From positions 1 through 64,000 of the forward strand of contig NZ_JAJAFU010000003.1 in assembly GCF_020480685.1 (NCBI RefSeq): a stretch of 64,000 nt of DNA. Reading direction: 5' to 3'. Below are positions 55,990 to 64,000 of the stretch, piece by piece; positions within the stretch are counted from its first letter, which is position 1; each line of letters starts with the position of its first letter. Made by a program: the position numbers and the translations under genes. The DNA comes from Deferrivibrio essentukiensis. Its GTDB lineage: Bacteria; Chrysiogenota; Deferribacteres; Deferribacterales; Deferrivibrionaceae. The notes beneath the pieces are model-generated. The model was not told the origin of the DNA. It saw only the letters and a list, made by a program, of their open reading frames with translations, and searched no databases.

Positions 55990-56343
55990 ATGCCAAGAAA
56001 AGATTTAGTCACCTATCCAAAAAAAGTTTCCTACAGGAAACACACAGGAATGGTGGCCTGGTTGCTTCACAGAATCTCTGGAGTAATCATAGGCCTTTAC
56101 TTGATTTTCCACATACTTGGGAAATCAGGGGTTGCAGAGTGGTTTACCTCTCTTACGGCAAATCCTGTTGCGAGGATAATTGTTCTCTTAGCTTTTACTT
56201 TCCATGCTTTTAATGGCTTCAGGATTGTGTTAATCGATTTTGCCACAGGTTCTGAAAAAGAAGTATTCTCAAAACAGTTTATGGTTGTTCTTTTCTTAAC
56301 CGTAGTAGTGCTTATTATTGGCGCTTTTCCAATTTTTTCTTAG
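55990..56343 (+). CDS. sdhC: Succinate dehydrogenase/fumarate reductase cytochrome b subunit
   Basis: 117 residues with three helices. HTGMVAWLLHRISGVIIGLYLIFHI contains the HRxSG quinone/heme motif (His29, Arg30, Ser32) and a second His in the helix; FTFHAFNGFRIVL gives a further His. It anchors the complex in the membrane and binds heme b with SdhD. GAGGTG precedes the ATG. The operon order C-D-A-B is the common one. Confidence 0.92.
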   Translation: MPRKDLVTYPKKVSYRKHTGMVAWLLHRISGVIIGLYLIFHILGKSGVAEWFTSLTANPVARIIVLLAFTFHAFNGFRIVLIDFATGSEKEVFSKQFMVVLFLTVVVLIIGAFPIFS

Positions 56344-56355
56344 AGGAGGGACCAC

Positions 56356-56673
56356 ATGAAACAATTTAAGTTTAACGGTTCAAGTGATAGCGGTGTTTTT
56401 GAATGGCTGCTTCAGAGAGTGTCCGGTGTTATTTTAATATTAGTTATTTTTATCCACTTCTTCTCAATGATTAAGTCTGGTGATTGGGGGCTTAAAAAGA
56501 TTGTATTAGGACCTCTTTTTGCTTTCGGTATATTCCATACCCTTAACGGGTTTAAAATGATTACCGACGATTATGTAGCAAGCACAACTTGGAGAGCTAT
56601 TATTCTTGCAATATATTGGATAGTCGGAGTTACTCTTGCAGTATTAGCTCTCAGTGTAGTTTCAAGTTTATAA
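56356..56673 (+). CDS. sdhD: Succinate dehydrogenase membrane anchor subunit
   Basis: 105 residues with three helices. FEWLLQRVSGVILILVIFIHFFSM has the anchor Arg-x-Ser-Gly and a heme-ligand His, and GIFHTLNGFKMI provides a second His. SdhC and SdhD together carry electrons between the iron-sulfur subunit and the quinone pool. GAGGAGGG precedes the ATG. It is 12 bp after sdhC. Confidence 0.9.
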   Translation: MKQFKFNGSSDSGVFEWLLQRVSGVILILVIFIHFFSMIKSGDWGLKKIVLGPLFAFGIFHTLNGFKMITDDYVASTTWRAIILAIYWIVGVTLAVLALSVVSSL

Positions 56674-56694
56674 AAAATAAAGAGAGGTTAAGAT

Positions 56695-58464
56695 ATGTCT
56701 GTAAAAGTAGAGTATCATAAATTTGATGTTGTCGTCCTTGGTGCTGGTGGGGCTGGACTTAATGCAGCTCAAGTAGCATCTCAATATTGTAGTACTGCAG
56801 TAATTTCAGAAGTATATCCTACACGTAGCCATACCATTTCTGCACAAGGCGGTATTTCTGCTGCACTTGGTAACTTGGAAGAGGATCACTGGCATTGGCA
56901 TATGTATGACACTGTAAAAGGTAGTGATTATCTTGCTGACCAAGATTCATGTGAGTATATGACTAAACTTGCTCCACAATATGTAATTGAGCTTGAACAC
57001 ATAGGTGTTCCATTCAGTAGAACTCCTGATGGGAAAATTGCTCAAAGGCCATTTGGAGGCCACACTGCGGAGTTCGGTAAGAGACCTGTAAAGAGGGCTT
57101 GCTATGCAGCTGACAGAACAGGTCACGTAATGCTTCAGACTCTTTATGAGAAGGCTGTTGCACAAAAGACTCAATTTTTTAGTGAATTTTATGCATTAGA
57201 GCTTCTCGTAAATGATGGTGCCGTAAATGGTGTATTATGCTGGGATATTCAAAATGGCGGATTCCATCTTTTTCATGCCAAATCTGTTGTATTTGCTACC
57301 GGTGGTTGTTCAAGATTTTATAAAACCACATCCAATGCACACATTAATACCGGTGATGGTCTTACTCTTGCAATGAGAAAGGGTTTCTCCTGGTCTGACC
57401 CTGAATTTATACAGTTCCACCCCACAGGGATTTATATTGCTGGAAACCTTATTACAGAAGGTGTTAGAGGTGAAGGTGGTATTCTTCTTAACGCTAACGG
57501 CGAAAGATTTATGGAAAAGTATGCACCAACTATTAAAGACCTTGCACCAAGAGATATCGTTTCCCGCTCAATGGTTAAAGAAGTTTTAGCTGGACGTGGT
57601 GTTGGTCCTAAAAAAGACCACGTACTTTTAAAAATAGATCATATCGGTGCAGATGCAATTATGGAAAAACTTCCGGGCATTCATGAGCTTACACTTGTTT
57701 TTGCTGGTGTTGATTGTACTAAAGAGCCAATCCCTGTAATGCCTACTGCTCACTATCAAAATGGTGGTATACCAACTAACTATAAAACTCATGTAATCAA
57801 GGCTTTTGGTGAAAACCCAGAAGAGACAGTGCCTGGGTTCTTTGCCGCCGGTGAAGTAGCTTCAGCTTCTGTCCATGGTGCTAACAGACTTGGAACTAAC
57901 TCTCTTCTTGACCTTGTAGTATTTGGTAGGACTGCCGGTGAGGAGGCTGCAAAATATGCAAAAGATAACGGATTTGTACCACTTGCAGAAGATGCTGGGA
58001 AAGAAGGGATTGAATTATTGCAAAAATTCTTAAACGCTAATGGTGAATATACTTTTGGACCTGTTTATACTGAACTTACTGAGACTATGGAAAAGAATGT
58101 TGGAGTTTTCAGGACTGAAGAAACTATGACTCAAGCAAAAGCTGATTTGGCAGAATTGGCTAAAAAGATGGAAAACTTTAGAGTTAATGATAAATCTAAC
58201 ATCTATAATTTAGAGCTCATTGAAGCCCTTGAACTAAATAATATGATAATTAATGCAAGAGCATTAACTGAGTCAGCTCTACTTAGGAAAGAATCAAGAG
58301 GTGGTCACGCAAGAGAAGATTATCAAGAGAGAGATGATGCCAACTTCCATAAACATAGTGAAGTAACACTTGATAAAGAAGGAAACGTGATCGTTGGATA
58401 CAGACCGGTTAGGATGAAACCACTTACTGTTGAAACTTTCCCACCAAAGCCAAGGGTATATTAA
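56695..58464 (+). CDS. sdhA: Succinate dehydrogenase flavoprotein subunit
   Basis: 589 residues. The FAD-binding [13 protein letters not shown] (13-25) is followed by [18 protein letters not shown], whose His carries covalent FAD in the family. The dicarboxylate site shows [22 protein letters not shown] and [15 protein letters not shown]; the capping-domain Arg is in [11 protein letters not shown]. Covalent flavinylation is normally aided by SdhE, for which a homologue lies at 59247. Sequence does not settle whether it works as succinate oxidase or fumarate reductase. Confidence 0.96.
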
Positions 58465-58476
58465 GAGGAGGGCAAA

Positions 58477-59187
58477 ATGAGTAAATTTGTAACTTTTGAA
58501 ATTTTTAGATACGACCCAGAGAAGGATAAAGAGCCATACTACCAGTCTTATAAAGTAGAAATCAGAAGGCCAGGTATGCTAATGCTTGAAGGCCTTAACC
58601 AGATTAAATGGGAGCAGGATACTACACTTGCATTCAGACGTTCCTGCCGCGAAGGTGTTTGTGGATCTGACGGTATAAATGTCAACGGTGTAAACATGCT
58701 ATCTTGCATGACAAAGATTGAAGACTTAGGTTCTGATCATCTCGTAATTCAGCCTTTGCCTGGTATGCCGGTAATGAGAGACTTGGTGACTGATGTTGAT
58801 GATTTTTTTGAAAAGTTTATTACAGTTAAGCCTTACCTTATCAGAAAATCTCCTGCTCCAGACAAAGAGTATTATCAGTCTCCTGAAGACAGGAAAAAAT
58901 TGGATGGTCTTTACGAATGTATTCTATGCGGATGCTGTTCATCCTCTTGCCCATCTTACTGGGCTGACAAAAAATATTTGGGACCTAACGCCTTCTTAAG
59001 AGCTTATAGATATTTAATTGACTCAAGGGATGAAGGTGCTGAAGAAAGATTGCCTATTTTAAACGACAAAAACGGCGTATGGCGTTGTCACACAATCTAC
59101 AATTGTGTGGAAGCTTGTCCTAAAGAACTTAATCCGACTAAAGCTATTGTTGGCATTCGCCAAATGCTTCTTGAAAGGAAATATTAA
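58477..59187 (+). CDS. sdhB: Succinate dehydrogenase iron-sulfur subunit
   Basis: 236 residues with the three clusters: 2Fe-2S in CREGVCGSDGINVNG plus the later Cys in MLSCM, 4Fe-4S in CILCGCCSSSCPSYW and 3Fe-4S in CHTIYNCVEACPKELNP. It passes electrons from FAD to the quinone. AGGAGGG lies before the ATG and the stop is 4 bp from the terminator stem. Confidence 0.96.
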   Translation: MSKFVTFEIFRYDPEKDKEPYYQSYKVEIRRPGMLMLEGLNQIKWEQDTTLAFRRSCREGVCGSDGINVNGVNMLSCMTKIEDLGSDHLVIQPLPGMPVMRDLVTDVDDFFEKFITVKPYLIRKSPAPDKEYYQSPEDRKKLDGLYECILCGCCSSSCPSYWADKKYLGPNAFLRAYRYLIDSRDEGAEERLPILNDKNGVWRCHTIYNCVEACPKELNPTKAIVGIRQMLLERKY

Positions 59188-59191
59188 TAAA

Positions 59192-59217
59192 AAGCCCGCC
59201 GAAAGGCGGGTTTTTTT
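59192..59217 (+). terminator. Intrinsic terminator of sdhCDAB
   Basis: AAGCCCGCC and GGCGGGTTT enclose the stable tetraloop GAAA, with seven T at the end. It ends the sdh operon and stands before the converging SdhE-like gene. Confidence 0.95.
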
Positions 59218-59246: not shown

Positions 59247-59549
59247 TTATTTTGATTTAACCTTATCTCTTACAGTTTTGGCAAATATTTCTATATCTTT
59301 CAGAAACTTGTACTCATACTGCTCTTTATAATCTTCAGCGGTTTTATTTCCCATTATTATATCAAACAAGTCATTATCGTATATATCTTTCAAAAATATA
59401 TTAAATCTATCCAAATCATCTATCGAGTAGTTATTAATTACAAAACTATTTAAGAAATCTTTAAGAAAATACTCATTTTCAAGCATTGCCCGTCTGGCGC
59501 ATTGAAATGCACATTTTTTAAATTCCTTTGTTTCTTTTATATTATCCAT
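59247..59549 (-). CDS. sdhE: SdhE-like FAD assembly factor (divergent)
   Basis: 100 residues. CARRAMLENEYFLKDFLN (Arg19, Arg20, Ala21, Glu24) lies where SdhE/Sdh5 has the RRGxxE motif, and the following helices with DLFDIIMGNKTAEDYKEQYE match the DxDLxxWLxG region. The glycine that contacts the flavoprotein in known SdhE is Ala here. Family members assist covalent FAD attachment to SdhA. Its position, converging on sdhCDAB and 60 bp away, supports the call. Known SdhE proteins are about 80-90 residues; this one has short extensions at both ends. Confidence 0.75.
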   Translation of the reverse strand: MDNIKETKEFKKCAFQCARRAMLENEYFLKDFLNSFVINNYSIDDLDRFNIFLKDIYDNDLFDIIMGNKTAEDYKEQYEYKFLKDIEIFAKTVRDKVKSK

Positions 59550-59565
59550 TATTTCCCTCTATAAT

Positions 59566-59593
59566 AAAAAGTCCGCATAAAAGCGGACTTTTT
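59566..59593 (-). terminator. Intrinsic terminator of the sucCD-kor operon
   Basis: AAAAAGTCCGC and GCGGACTTTTT enclose the loop ATAAAA. On the minus strand the stem is followed by a run of T derived from the A-tract at 59566-59570. It lies between korC and the SdhE-like gene, so these are separate transcription units. Confidence 0.88.
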
Positions 59594-59599
59594 AAATTA

Positions 59600-60139
59600 T
59601 TACATATTTTTTTTGGCAAGCTCCATACCAGCGTAAAGAGCCTTTTTATTGAGCTCTTCAGTCCCTTTTGGTACTTTACTTAGCACACCTTTTTCCAGTT
59701 TATCAACATCCAGCAGATTGGTAATTTGATTTACAACACCCAATGTTACAATGTTTGCTACCATCGACTTTCCAATATCTTCTGCTGCTGTCTTTATGAT
59801 TGGTAATGCATATACTTTAAAATTCCCCTTTGGAAGATCTTTTACAAGCATACTATCAACTATCACAACGCTACCTTCTTTAGCATCACCAATAAACTTA
59901 TCACATGCTTCTTGAGTAAGAGCAACGAGGACATCTGATTTTAAAACTTTTACATAGTTAATATCTTCATCACTTATTACGACCTCACCTCTGGCTGCGC
60001 CACCTCTTGCCTCAGGTCCATATGATTTTGTCTGCACAGCCTTTTTACCTGCAAATACAGCAGCATAGCCTAAGATTGCTGCTGCAGTAATAGTTCCTTG
60101 TCCACCTGAACCACCTAATCTTATATCAACTCTTGCCAT
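59600..60139 (-). CDS. korC: 2-oxoglutarate:ferredoxin oxidoreductase subunit gamma
   Basis: 179 residues. GGSGGQGTITAAAILGYAA (residues 8-26) and QTKSYGPEARGGAARGEVVIS are diagnostic of the gamma subunit of 2-oxoacid:ferredoxin oxidoreductases, and VDSMLVKDLP is a conserved mid-region. It is the last gene of the operon, 9 bp after korB. With the alpha, beta and delta subunits it interconverts 2-oxoglutarate, CoA and oxidised ferredoxin with succinyl-CoA and CO2. Confidence 0.92.
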   Translation of the reverse strand: MARVDIRLGGSGGQGTITAAAILGYAAVFAGKKAVQTKSYGPEARGGAARGEVVISDEDINYVKVLKSDVLVALTQEACDKFIGDAKEGSVVIVDSMLVKDLPKGNFKVYALPIIKTAAEDIGKSMVANIVTLGVVNQITNLLDVDKLEKGVLSKVPKGTEELNKKALYAGMELAKKNM

Positions 60140-60148
60140 CTTATACTC

Positions 60149-60958
60149 CTATTTTTTTAATCCAACAGTTGCATCATATGTTTCAATATACTCTGGTTTC
60201 TCTTCCTTATGAAGAACACCAATAGTAAACTTTCCAGCCAGTTCTTCTTCAGACATCTTCTTAGCTTTTTCAATATTAACTGCACTGTCTTTCATCCATA
60301 AAAGCATTGATGTAGGAGTCTTAAATTTATTCTTTCTACCAAAACCGGTTGGGCATGCGTTGATAATTTCAACTACACTTAAACCTTTATGTTGGAACGC
60401 TTCCTTCATTGTTTTTTCACAATGTGCAACATGGTATGCTGTAGTTCTTGCAACAAAGGTCGCTCCAGCACCAATTGCAAGGTCAGTAATTGTAAAGTTA
60501 TTTTCAGTCATACCATATGGTGCAGTTGTTGCCCATGCACCCTTTGGAGTTGTAGGAGAATATTGGGCACCGGTCATACCATAAATATTATTATTAAATA
60601 CAAACACCGTCATATCAATATTCCTTCTGCAAGCATGGATAAAATGATTACCGCCTATAGCAGTCATATCACCGTCTCCACCCATTGCAAGAACTTTCAA
60701 GTTTGGATTTGCCAACTTTATACCGGTAGCAAACGCAATTGATCTACCATGGGTAGTATGTAAAGTGTTAAAATCAACATATCCGGGCAAACGGCTTGCA
60801 CATCCAATACCTGAAACTATTGCAACATCATTTTTATCCCACTGTAAGGAACCTATTGCTCTGATGAGAGATTTCAATACGATACCGTATGTACAGCCTG
60901 CACACCAAATATGCGGCAGTTTCCCTTTTCTCAAATATTTAGCGTAATCGTAAGCCAT
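60149..60958 (-). CDS. korB: 2-oxoglutarate:ferredoxin oxidoreductase subunit beta
   Basis: 269 residues. WCAGCTYGIVLKSL (about 18-31) holds Cys ligands for a 4Fe-4S cluster, and the thiamine diphosphate and Mg site is GGDGDMTAIGGNHFIHACRRN followed by VFNNNIYGMTGAQ (about 93-130), with the GDGD...NNN pattern. The gene begins immediately after the korA stop. This type (separate alpha, beta, gamma, delta) fits KorABCD. The succinyl-CoA ligase genes upstream support 2-oxoglutarate rather than another 2-oxoacid. Confidence 0.93.
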   Translation of the reverse strand: MAYDYAKYLRKGKLPHIWCAGCTYGIVLKSLIRAIGSLQWDKNDVAIVSGIGCASRLPGYVDFNTLHTTHGRSIAFATGIKLANPNLKVLAMGGDGDMTAIGGNHFIHACRRNIDMTVFVFNNNIYGMTGAQYSPTTPKGAWATTAPYGMTENNFTITDLAIGAGATFVARTTAYHVAHCEKTMKEAFQHKGLSVVEIINACPTGFGRKNKFKTPTSMLLWMKDSAVNIEKAKKMSEEELAGKFTIGVLHKEEKPEYIETYDATVGLKK

Positions 60959-62095
60959 TTATACAAACCTCCTGATTTTTTCCAGGATTTCCCCGGGAAG
61001 GATAGGATCAAGCATTAAGCTATAAAGCCCCTCTACCCCACAGCGACCTTTTGCAACTCTTTGGACCTCAAAAGTCATCTGACCTAAGTTCATTTCAGGA
61101 ACTACGATACCTTTTACATTATTCTTGGATAATAACTTATCAAGATGTTTTTCCGGGAAAGGCCAAATTGTCAATGGTCTGACAAGGCCTGCTTTAATAC
61201 CCTGATTTCTTGCCTCAACTACTGCATGCTTAGCTGATCTTGCAGTAACCCCAATAGCAAATACAAGTACCTCTGCATCATCAGTCATAAATTCTTCTAC
61301 TTTAACTATATCATCATAGTTTTTATTTAGTTTTTCAATAAGTCTTACAGTATTTTTAGTATGAAGTTCAGGATCATTTGTGGGGAAACCATCTGCTGCG
61401 TGGTGTAAACCTGTTATGTGATACCTATATCCGGAACCAAAAGGTGGCATTGGATTAACATCTTTATCCATGTCATATGGCAGATACTCTTCCGGTTTAC
61501 AGTCAGGCATAAGTCTATCAACAACTTCCAATTCACCCGGTTCAGGGATAACTAATTGCTCCATCATTTGCCCTATGATTGAATCTGTAAGCACAAAAAC
61601 AGGACATCTATATTTTTCTGCGAGATTAAATGCCCTAACCGTTTCATCAAATTGCTCTTGAACAGATGCAGGAGTTACTGCTATAACTGGGTGGTCTCCA
61701 TGAGTACCCCATTTTGCCTGCATAATGTCTGACTGACTTGGGCCGGTTGGCATACCTGTAGAAGGTCCACCTCTCATTACATCAACAATTACACATGGAA
61801 TCTCACAAAGCATCGCATAACCAATATTTTCCTGCTTTAGTGAAAATCCCGGACCACTTGTAGCAGTCAAAGCTTTTGCACCTGCAATTGATGCACCTAT
61901 TACTGAAGCCATTGCAGCAATCTCATCTTCCATCTGTATAAACCTTCCACCAACTTGAGGTAACCTTTCAGCCATTCTTTCTGCTACTTCTGTTGAAGGT
62001 GTAATCGGGTATCCGCCAAAAAACTTGCAACCAGCATACAGTGCCCCTTCTGCGATTGCATAGTTACCCATCATAAATTCTACTTTTTTAGCCAC
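60959..62095 (-). CDS. korA: 2-oxoglutarate:ferredoxin oxidoreductase subunit alpha
   Basis: 378 residues: FFGGYPITPSTEVAE (about 25-39), TSGPGFSLKQENIGYAMLCEIP and DVMRGGPSTGMPTGPSQSD are characteristic of the KorA/PorA alpha subunit, and FVLTDSIIGQMMEQL and the C-terminal VPEMNLGQM are typical of the 2-oxoglutarate branch. The enzyme is oxygen-sensitive in most organisms, so a low-oxygen lifestyle is likely. It follows korD by 16 bp. Confidence 0.94.
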   Translation of the reverse strand: MAKKVEFMMGNYAIAEGALYAGCKFFGGYPITPSTEVAERMAERLPQVGGRFIQMEDEIAAMASVIGASIAGAKALTATSGPGFSLKQENIGYAMLCEIPCVIVDVMRGGPSTGMPTGPSQSDIMQAKWGTHGDHPVIAVTPASVQEQFDETVRAFNLAEKYRCPVFVLTDSIIGQMMEQLVIPEPGELEVVDRLMPDCKPEEYLPYDMDKDVNPMPPFGSGYRYHITGLHHAADGFPTNDPELHTKNTVRLIEKLNKNYDDIVKVEEFMTDDAEVLVFAIGVTARSAKHAVVEARNQGIKAGLVRPLTIWPFPEKHLDKLLSKNNVKGIVVPEMNLGQMTFEVQRVAKGRCGVEGLYSLMLDPILPGEILEKIRRFV

Positions 62096-62111
62096 GTGTA
62101 TCCCCCTTAAT

Positions 62112-62315
62112 TTACTCTTTCTCTTTCTTATAAACTACAATTGCAAAATCAGGACATCTCAGTTCACACTGCATACAAGCAATACACTTTTCCAAGTCCT
62201 TTACGGCAACTTTAAAGTCAACCATTTCAATTGCATTTGTAGGGCAAAGCTCAACACATATCTCACAACCTTTGCACCATTTTTTATTAATCTCTATTCT
62301 TTCTGCTTTAGCCAT
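62112..62315 (-). CDS. korD: Ferredoxin-like subunit delta of 2-oxoglutarate:ferredoxin oxidoreductase
   Basis: 67 residues with two 4Fe-4S motifs: CKGCEICVELCP (Cys14, 17, 20, 24) and CIACMQCELRCP. Sequences like KKWCKGCEICVELCPTNA are the delta subunit of KorABCD, which passes electrons from the beta subunit to ferredoxin. It lies between sucD and korA. Confidence 0.93.
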   Translation of the reverse strand: MAKAERIEINKKWCKGCEICVELCPTNAIEMVDFKVAVKDLEKCIACMQCELRCPDFAIVVYKKEKE

Positions 62316-62329
62316 CTACTACTCCTTAA

Positions 62330-63199
62330 TTATTTAAGAATTTTAGCAACTGTTTCACCAATATCTGCCGGACTCACAACGACATGAACACCTGCCGCTG
62401 TCAAAGCATCCATTTTTTCTTTGGCAGTCCCTTTACCACCGGAAATGATAGCACCTGCATGCCCCATTCTTTTACCTTTAGGAGCAGTCTGTCCGGCTAT
62501 AAATGCTACTACCGGTTTTTTTATATTTTTCTTAATAAATTCAGCTGCTTCTATCTCCAAAGTACCACCTATTTCACCAATCATAACTATTGCTTTGGTT
62601 TCAGGGTCTTCTTCAAACATAGGAAGCAAATCTTTATAACTTAATCCGATAATTGGGTCCCCACCAATTCCAACGGCTGTAGTCACACCAAAACCTGCTT
62701 TAACTACCTGGTTACTTGCTTCATAAGTCAAAGTACCTGATTTGGAAATTAGTCCAACAGGTCCTTTCTTAAAGATAAATCCGGGCATAATTCCGATTTT
62801 GCACTCTTCAGACGTAATAATTCCCGGACAGTTAGGTCCAATCATCTTCATACCTTTTTTGACTGCATAGGCCTTAGCATACATCATATCTTTTACAGGT
62901 GTGCCCTCAGTAATTGTAACAGCAAGCTCGATACCGGCATCAGCAGCTTCCATAACAGCATCAGCAACAAATGCAGGTGGAACAAATATCAAACTAACTG
63001 TTGCACCGGTAGCCTCAACAGCTTCTTCAACGGTATTGAAGACAGGTTTACCAAGATGAGTCTGCCCACCCTTACCAGGAGTAACACCGCCAACTATCTT
63101 AGTGCCATACTCCATACATTGCTCGGCATGAAAAGTACCTTCCCTTCCGGTAAAGCCTTGAACTATTACTTTTGTGTCTTTATTAACAAGAATGCTCAT
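62330..63199 (-). CDS. sucD: Succinyl-CoA ligase (ADP-forming) subunit alpha
   Basis: 289 residues. The CoA-binding Rossmann start has [21 protein letters not shown] (in pieces, 14-34) and the phospho-histidine loop is [14 protein letters not shown] (His near 243). [19 protein letters not shown] and the SGTLTYEA nucleotide-side motif are present. It converts succinyl-CoA, ADP and phosphate to succinate, CoA and ATP, reversibly. It shares one base with the sucC stop (ATAA junction at 63199). Confidence 0.96.
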
Positions 63200-64000
63200 T
63201 ATTTACCCCCTTTAGCTGCGCTAACAACTTTTTTAGCGCCATCTTTAAGATCATTGGCTGATATAATATTTTCAATTCCTGAATTGTTAAGTATTTCAGA
63301 GGCTTCTTCTGCATTTGTACCATCAAGTCTTACTACCACAGGCACATCAACTTTTGTAAGTTTGGTTGCTTCAAGAATACCGTTTGCTACTCTATCGCAT
63401 CTTACTATACCACCAAAAATATTCACAAAAATTGCCTTCACGTTTGGATCTCTTAAAATTATCTCAAAACCCTTAGCAACAGTTTCAGCACTTGCTCCGC
63501 CGCCAACATCCAAAAAGTTTGCAGGCTGACCACCTTCATGCTTTATAATATCCATAGTTGCCATTGCAAGCCCTGCACCATTAACCATACAGCCTACATT
63601 GCCATCAAGCTTAATATAACTTAAGCCGTACTTTCCGGCCTCTATCTCTGTAGGCTCTTCTTCAGTTAAATCTCTCATAGCAAGAATTTCAGGTTGTCTG
63701 TACAGTGCGTTGTCATCAAATCCCATTTTAGCGTCAAGAGCTACAAACTTCTTATCTTTTGTGCGGATTAATGGGTTTATTTCGATAAGATTTGCATCGT
63801 AATCCATATATACGTGATAAAGTGCCTGAGCAAAACTTATAAATTTATTTACCTGATCTTTAGAAAGACCAAGACCAAATGCAAGTTTTCTACCGTGAAA
63901 TCCCTGAAAACCGATTGCAGGATCTATTTCAACCTTGATGATCTTTTCCGGGGTTTTAGCTGCAACCTCTTCTATCTCCATTCCACCTTCAGTGGAAGCC
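63199..64000 (-). CDS. sucC: Succinyl-CoA ligase (ADP-forming) subunit beta, 5' part beyond the window
   Basis: Only the last 267 codons are present; the family is near 390 residues. The frame is open to the window edge, reading [20 protein letters not shown], which belongs to the middle of SucC, so the first Met inside is not the start. [19 protein letters not shown] holds metal-binding Asn and Asp, and [18 protein letters not shown] plus [15 protein letters not shown] are the conserved C-terminal block. It forms the nucleotide-binding half of the enzyme with SucD. Confidence 0.95.

Follow-up and report, generated by a model that had tools for sequence, protein, structure and literature searches.

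An SdhE/Sdh5-family protein with alanine at the conserved glycine position, encoded beside sdhCDAB in Deferrivibrio essentukiensis

E. coli SdhE increases the rate of SdhA flavinylation nearly 20-fold (PMC9557727). In the structure of E. coli FrdA with SdhE, Gly16 forms a bond through its backbone carbonyl with the flavin-ligating His (PMC5773532), and the same carbonyl-to-His contact is described for Gly78 of human SDHAF2 and for SdhE (PMC9557727). The substitutions named as tested in the accessible part of PMC8621075 are Gly to Arg, which results in loss of function, and Glu to Ala. E. coli SdhA is also able to self-flavinylate with fumarate, and autocatalytic flavinylation occurs in organisms that have no SdhE (PMC9557727). 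The range of SdhE was given in a Serratia paper of 2016 as the α-, β- and γ-proteobacteria and the eukaryotes (PMC5042078).

The DNA analysed here (the window) is a stretch of 64,000 nucleotides from Deferrivibrio essentukiensis. The sdhE-like open reading frame begins with ATG and its coordinates in Table 1 include the stop codon. Its product, P0001, matches the Pfam family Sdh5/SdhE (PF03937) with 38.8 bits (E 9.2e-10) against a cut-off of 27, and a profile search of the genome found this gene as the sole PF03937 match. Since the Pfam score lies above the cut-off and 39 of the 50 phylum genomes searched encode a homologue, the reading frame is not a chance one. The motif of P0001 is CARRAMLENE, with RAMLE where the family has RGxxE. 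No NCBIfam model matched P0001, including NF008130, the model for the FAD assembly factor SdhE of the E. coli type, to which E. coli SdhE itself scores 198.4 bits. With Ala at the Gly position, the strict label of an RGxxE SdhE is unsuited to P0001, and because the curated whole-profile cut-off was passed, the protein is taken as a variant inside the Pfam family despite the Ala. The Sdh5 model was matched by all 19 family members that were scanned. When a profile of 19 relatives was compared with solved structures, its best five matches were all SdhE, Sdh5 or SDHAF2 proteins (4e-7 to 9e-4): yeast Sdh5 (2lm4, 4.3e-7), human SDHAF2 (8dyd, 3e-5; 6vax, 4.7e-5) and two further entries, which we take to be the Vibrio and Neisseria homologues. 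A tblastn search of a plasmid collection with P0001 gave no match. P0001 is an SdhE/Sdh5-family protein.

Table 1. Features of the sdhE locus in the window, by position.
Feature	Position	Strand	Basis or remark
sdhC, membrane anchor / cytochrome b556 subunit, 117 aa	55990..56343	+	NCBIfam TIGR02970 over cut-off
sdhD-like membrane anchor, 105 aa	56356..56673	+	TIGR02968 27.7 bits, below cut-off 41.8
sdhA, 589 aa, presumed client	56695..58464	+	TIGR01816; His46 codon 56830-56832
sdhB, iron-sulfur subunit, 236 aa	58477..59187	+	NF004616 over cut-off
Terminator-like hairpin between convergent sdhB and sdhE	59189..59216	+	Hairpin pattern scan and folding
sdhE-like gene, 100 aa	59247..59549	-	Sdh5/SdhE family
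RAMLENE motif, residues 20-26, replaces RGxxE	59472..59492	-	Ala21 codon GCA 59487-59489
Terminator-like hairpin with U-rich tail, korC-sdhE gap	59565..59594	-	-17.7 kcal/mol, z -7.0; from folding, absent from pattern-scan list
korC-like, 2-oxoacid:ferredoxin oxidoreductase gamma subunit, upstream neighbour of sdhE	59600..60139	-	Family match
korB, korA, korD of same oxidoreductase	60149..62315	-	Family matches
sucD and sucC	62330..63981	-	Named by eye from translation; synteny

The departure at the Gly position extends to every homologue found. Ala occupies it in all 39 Deferribacterota proteins, the window's included, in a scan that left this position free, and R20, Ala21, E24, N25 and E26 of RAxxENE are each present in 39 of 39; the scan and tally patterns preset R20, E24 and N25, the alignments preset no residue, and two rows of the 39-homologue alignment (L035 and L060) were read separately. 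Ala is therefore neither a sequencing error nor a result of local drift, and it is fixed across the order. All four Ala codons are used (GCT 16, GCG 11, GCA 8 and GCC 4), so that silent positions change and the residue does not. Gly was read at this position in all 13 Pseudomonadota SdhE proteins compared, namely E. coli SdhE and 12 plasmid- or chromid-borne ones selected from 36 record matches, and also in the five solved homologues with printed alignments (yeast, human in two entries, Vibrio and Neisseria). On rescoring of P0001 against the Pfam model, replacement of Ala21 by Gly gained 4.3 bits, which indicates a deviation from the family at a position that carries weight; Ser gained 0.2 bits and Arg lost 2.8, while loss of the motif Glu cost 7.4 bits and loss of the motif Arg 5.4. 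By this scoring, Ala appears as a notable departure, yet a milder one than loss of the motif Arg or Glu. The original prediction of an SdhE-like factor with Ala for Gly is thus borne out by the reading frame, the Pfam score and the 39 homologues alike.

The distribution of the family in the phylum was determined with two profiles. PF03937 was detected in 39 of 50 Deferribacterota genomes at E values up to 0.01, with 38 over the cut-off, and a profile built from 19 family members returned the same count. All 39 genomes fall among the 45 of the window's order, Deferribacterales, and their homologues span eight family-level groups; none was found in the five phylum genomes outside the order (G001-G005). 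The homologue of G049 is highly divergent (21 bits) and still carries KRAILENE. A literature search, whose scope took in few subscription papers, returned none linking an SdhE factor to Deferribacteres or Deferribacterota and none pairing SdhE with G16A. One paper in which SdhE co-occurs with Deferribacter (PMC3578206) uses that name for another protein, a membrane subunit of type E. Within the literature searched, the suggestion that the family was overlooked in this lineage is a fair one, given the range to which the accessible part of PMC5042078 limits SdhE, and the lineage of P0001 extends that described range beyond proteobacteria and eukaryotes.

The presumed client of P0001 is present in the window with its flavin-ligating His46 intact. 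SdhA scores 855.8 bits with TIGR01816, an SdhA equivalog model with a cut-off of 727, and its closest solved entry is 6lum, presumably from Mycobacterium smegmatis, followed by mitochondrial SDHA. A close SdhA (66-100% identity) is encoded in 41 of the 50 genomes, and by alignment SHTISAQGG with the flavin-ligating His is kept in 42 of 42 close SdhA sequences (41 fetched and the window's own), a count that omits eight more distant SdhA-like rows, among which the alignments of G001 and G002 do not cover the site. Of the 41 genomes that encode a close SdhA, 37 also have SdhE; seven genomes have neither (G001-G005, G015 and G048). A close SdhA with no SdhE found was seen in G030, G031, G036 and G045 (78, 88, 95 and 57% complete), and SdhE with no SdhA found in G046 and G047 (75 and 86%). 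Five of these six mismatched genomes are less than 90% complete. The exception is G036, in which SdhA is encoded close to a contig start; the sister genomes G033-G035 carry sdhE on that side of the SdhA gene, so that a contig break may explain the missing gene.

G032 encodes SdhA twice, both copies full and with 69 and 68% identity to that of the window. G048 and G049 have an SdhA-like protein that shares about 41% identity with the window's and reads RPHSVCAEGG at the flavin site; in G049 it occurs besides a close SdhA. Outside the order, all five genomes are without SdhE and have only distant SdhA-like proteins. Those of G003, G004 and G005 still have His at the flavin site, and flavin attachment there would accordingly have to proceed with no SdhE.

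In the window, sdhE converges on sdhCDAB (55990-59187, plus strand), as originally described, with 59 bp between the stop codons of sdhE and sdhB. Terminator-like hairpins stand both in the korC-sdhE gap and in the interval separating the sdhB and sdhE stops, so that a promoter of its own is possible for sdhE; the strong hairpin in the korC-sdhE gap suggests that the gene is uncoupled from the kor transcript. The neighbourhoods of the 39 homologues were counted by hand in flanks of up to 7 kb, shorter at contig ends. Of the 39 sdhE genes, 19 adjoin korC, 10 have sdhCDAB inside the fetched flank, and 6 converge directly with sdhB. Altogether sdhE is near sdh or kor genes in 22 genomes and away from both in 17 (12 of group f5, 3 of f2 and 2 of f6). 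Conservation of the gene near sdh, whose lack had been put forward as refuting the idea, is thus partial: it holds in 10 of the 39 genomes, while in the remaining 29 no sdhCDAB was seen in a flank of up to 7 kb.

In the f2 group (L034, L042, L049 and L035), sdhE comes after a gene that by eye resembles one for glucosamine-6-phosphate synthase. In G008 (L035), sdhE is located between this gene and korC. From the gene order, this arrangement is possibly a step in the move of sdhE away from the kor genes.

The fold of P0001 was addressed with an AlphaFold2 model made from two sequences. It has a pLDDT of 70, with the motif region among its weakest parts, and helices at residues 8-15, 26-40, 43-57, 61-66, 71-74 and 80-99. 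Foldseek gave three matches with this model, none of them significant (best E 8.6). When the six top Foldseek chains were aligned with VIA-align, the first three were E. coli SdhE, with Z scores of 6.0, 5.9 and 5.8 over 82-83 residues; these are 6c12, in which SdhE is in complex with SdhA, and two entries of free E. coli SdhE, and the next chain had a Z score of 3.4. The model of a relative (L031, from a Deferribacteraceae MAG) had a pLDDT of 53, too poor for a fold search. A resemblance to the five-helix SdhE fold thus shows in the alignment ranking and not in the Foldseek statistics. The predicted model agrees with this fold, but a Z score near 6 is modest for a helical bundle, and the structural support is weak.

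These results are best explained by P0001 being a genuine SdhE/Sdh5 assembly factor that works as an ordinary SdhE, a joint reading of family and function to which we assign a probability of about 0.8. By analogy with the studied homologues, P0001 probably binds SdhA, makes the carbonyl contact and promotes flavinylation. It would bind newly made SdhA carrying non-covalent FAD, in the site later taken by SdhB, and would speed the covalent attachment of FAD to His46. Through its backbone carbonyl, the residue that stands in the Gly position would act on the His. Since Ala keeps this carbonyl and adds only one small group, it would serve equally, which makes an ordinary, working SdhE the most likely reading of the Ala protein. 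The concern that Ala endangers function was over-stated, as the contact reported in the accessible parts of PMC5773532 and PMC9557727 is of the backbone and the loss-of-function change named in that of PMC8621075 is Gly to Arg. Ala would have been fixed before the order diversified, with the RAxxENE motif kept by selection, and RAxxE is best read as an order-wide class of working SdhE. We consider it unlikely that Ala is preferred over Gly and not simply tolerated, in an order-wide RAxxENE SdhE with a tuned mechanism. Such tuning could, for example, alter the rate or the ligand requirement to suit a succinate dehydrogenase that may run in both directions beside a 2-oxoglutarate:ferredoxin oxidoreductase.

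The main rival to a working SdhE is a protein that keeps the fold and binds SdhA and is weak or inactive in flavinylation, with SdhA self-flavinylating and SdhE stabilising apo-SdhA as a chaperone. The autocatalytic reactions described above, including that of E. coli SdhA with fumarate (PMC9557727), would allow this, as would the four genomes with SdhA and no SdhE found, and Gly to Arg does inactivate the known SdhE proteins (PMC8621075). However, those genomes are mostly incomplete drafts, the reported His contact uses the backbone carbonyl, and the motif Arg, Ala and Glu, unchanged in all 39 homologues, speak against relaxed selection at the site; we regard this chaperone role as quite unlikely. 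A CptB-type antitoxin, partner of the membrane toxin YgfX/CptA, was considered because an antitoxin role has been reported for YgfY, the homologue in E. coli (PMC8621075), and was dropped as very improbable when YgfX/CptA (PF07254) was detected in none of the 50 phylum genomes by a search that did detect the E. coli control. An unrelated small helical protein with a chance RxxxE run, which the lack of a significant Foldseek match and of any NCBIfam match would permit, is hardly credible against the Pfam E value, the Sdh5 matches of all 19 scanned members and the five SdhE, Sdh5 or SDHAF2 structures that head the lineage profile's matches.

The Deferribacterales bear on the role of the motif Gly, whose carbonyl is proposed in structural papers to orient the flavin-ligating His. 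The Gly to Arg change swaps in a large Arg and cannot separate the effect of the carbonyl from that of the absent side chain, whereas a lineage with Ala throughout its eight family-level groups offers a natural experiment on what the Gly is for. If the Ala protein works, the requirement is a carbonyl and a small residue.

P0001 shares with SdhE (YgfY) of E. coli and Serratia the Pfam Sdh5 family, a similar length, the motif Arg and Glu, and a presumed SdhA client with the flavin-ligating His. It differs from them in having Ala for Gly and ENE for ELD after the motif, in having no YgfX partner and in being unmatched by NF008130. Mitochondrial Sdh5/SDHAF2 proteins are the best solved matches of the lineage profile, and EN follows the motif in the human protein too; yeast and human have KRG where P0001 has RRA, and P0001 is without the mitochondrial targeting part. 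With respect to gene order, sdhE had been said to lie only rarely next to sdh. This does not hold for the proteobacterial plasmid and chromid loci compared, as sdhA and sdhB were beside sdhE in at least 4 of 12 (two in Paraburkholderia and one each in Xanthomonas and Neisseria; flanks of 2-5 kb). In these sdhCDAB-sdhE groups sdhE adjoins sdhB, as it does in the window. There, however, sdhE is co-directional with sdh, whereas here it is convergent and sits on the opposite strand, downstream of the kor genes.
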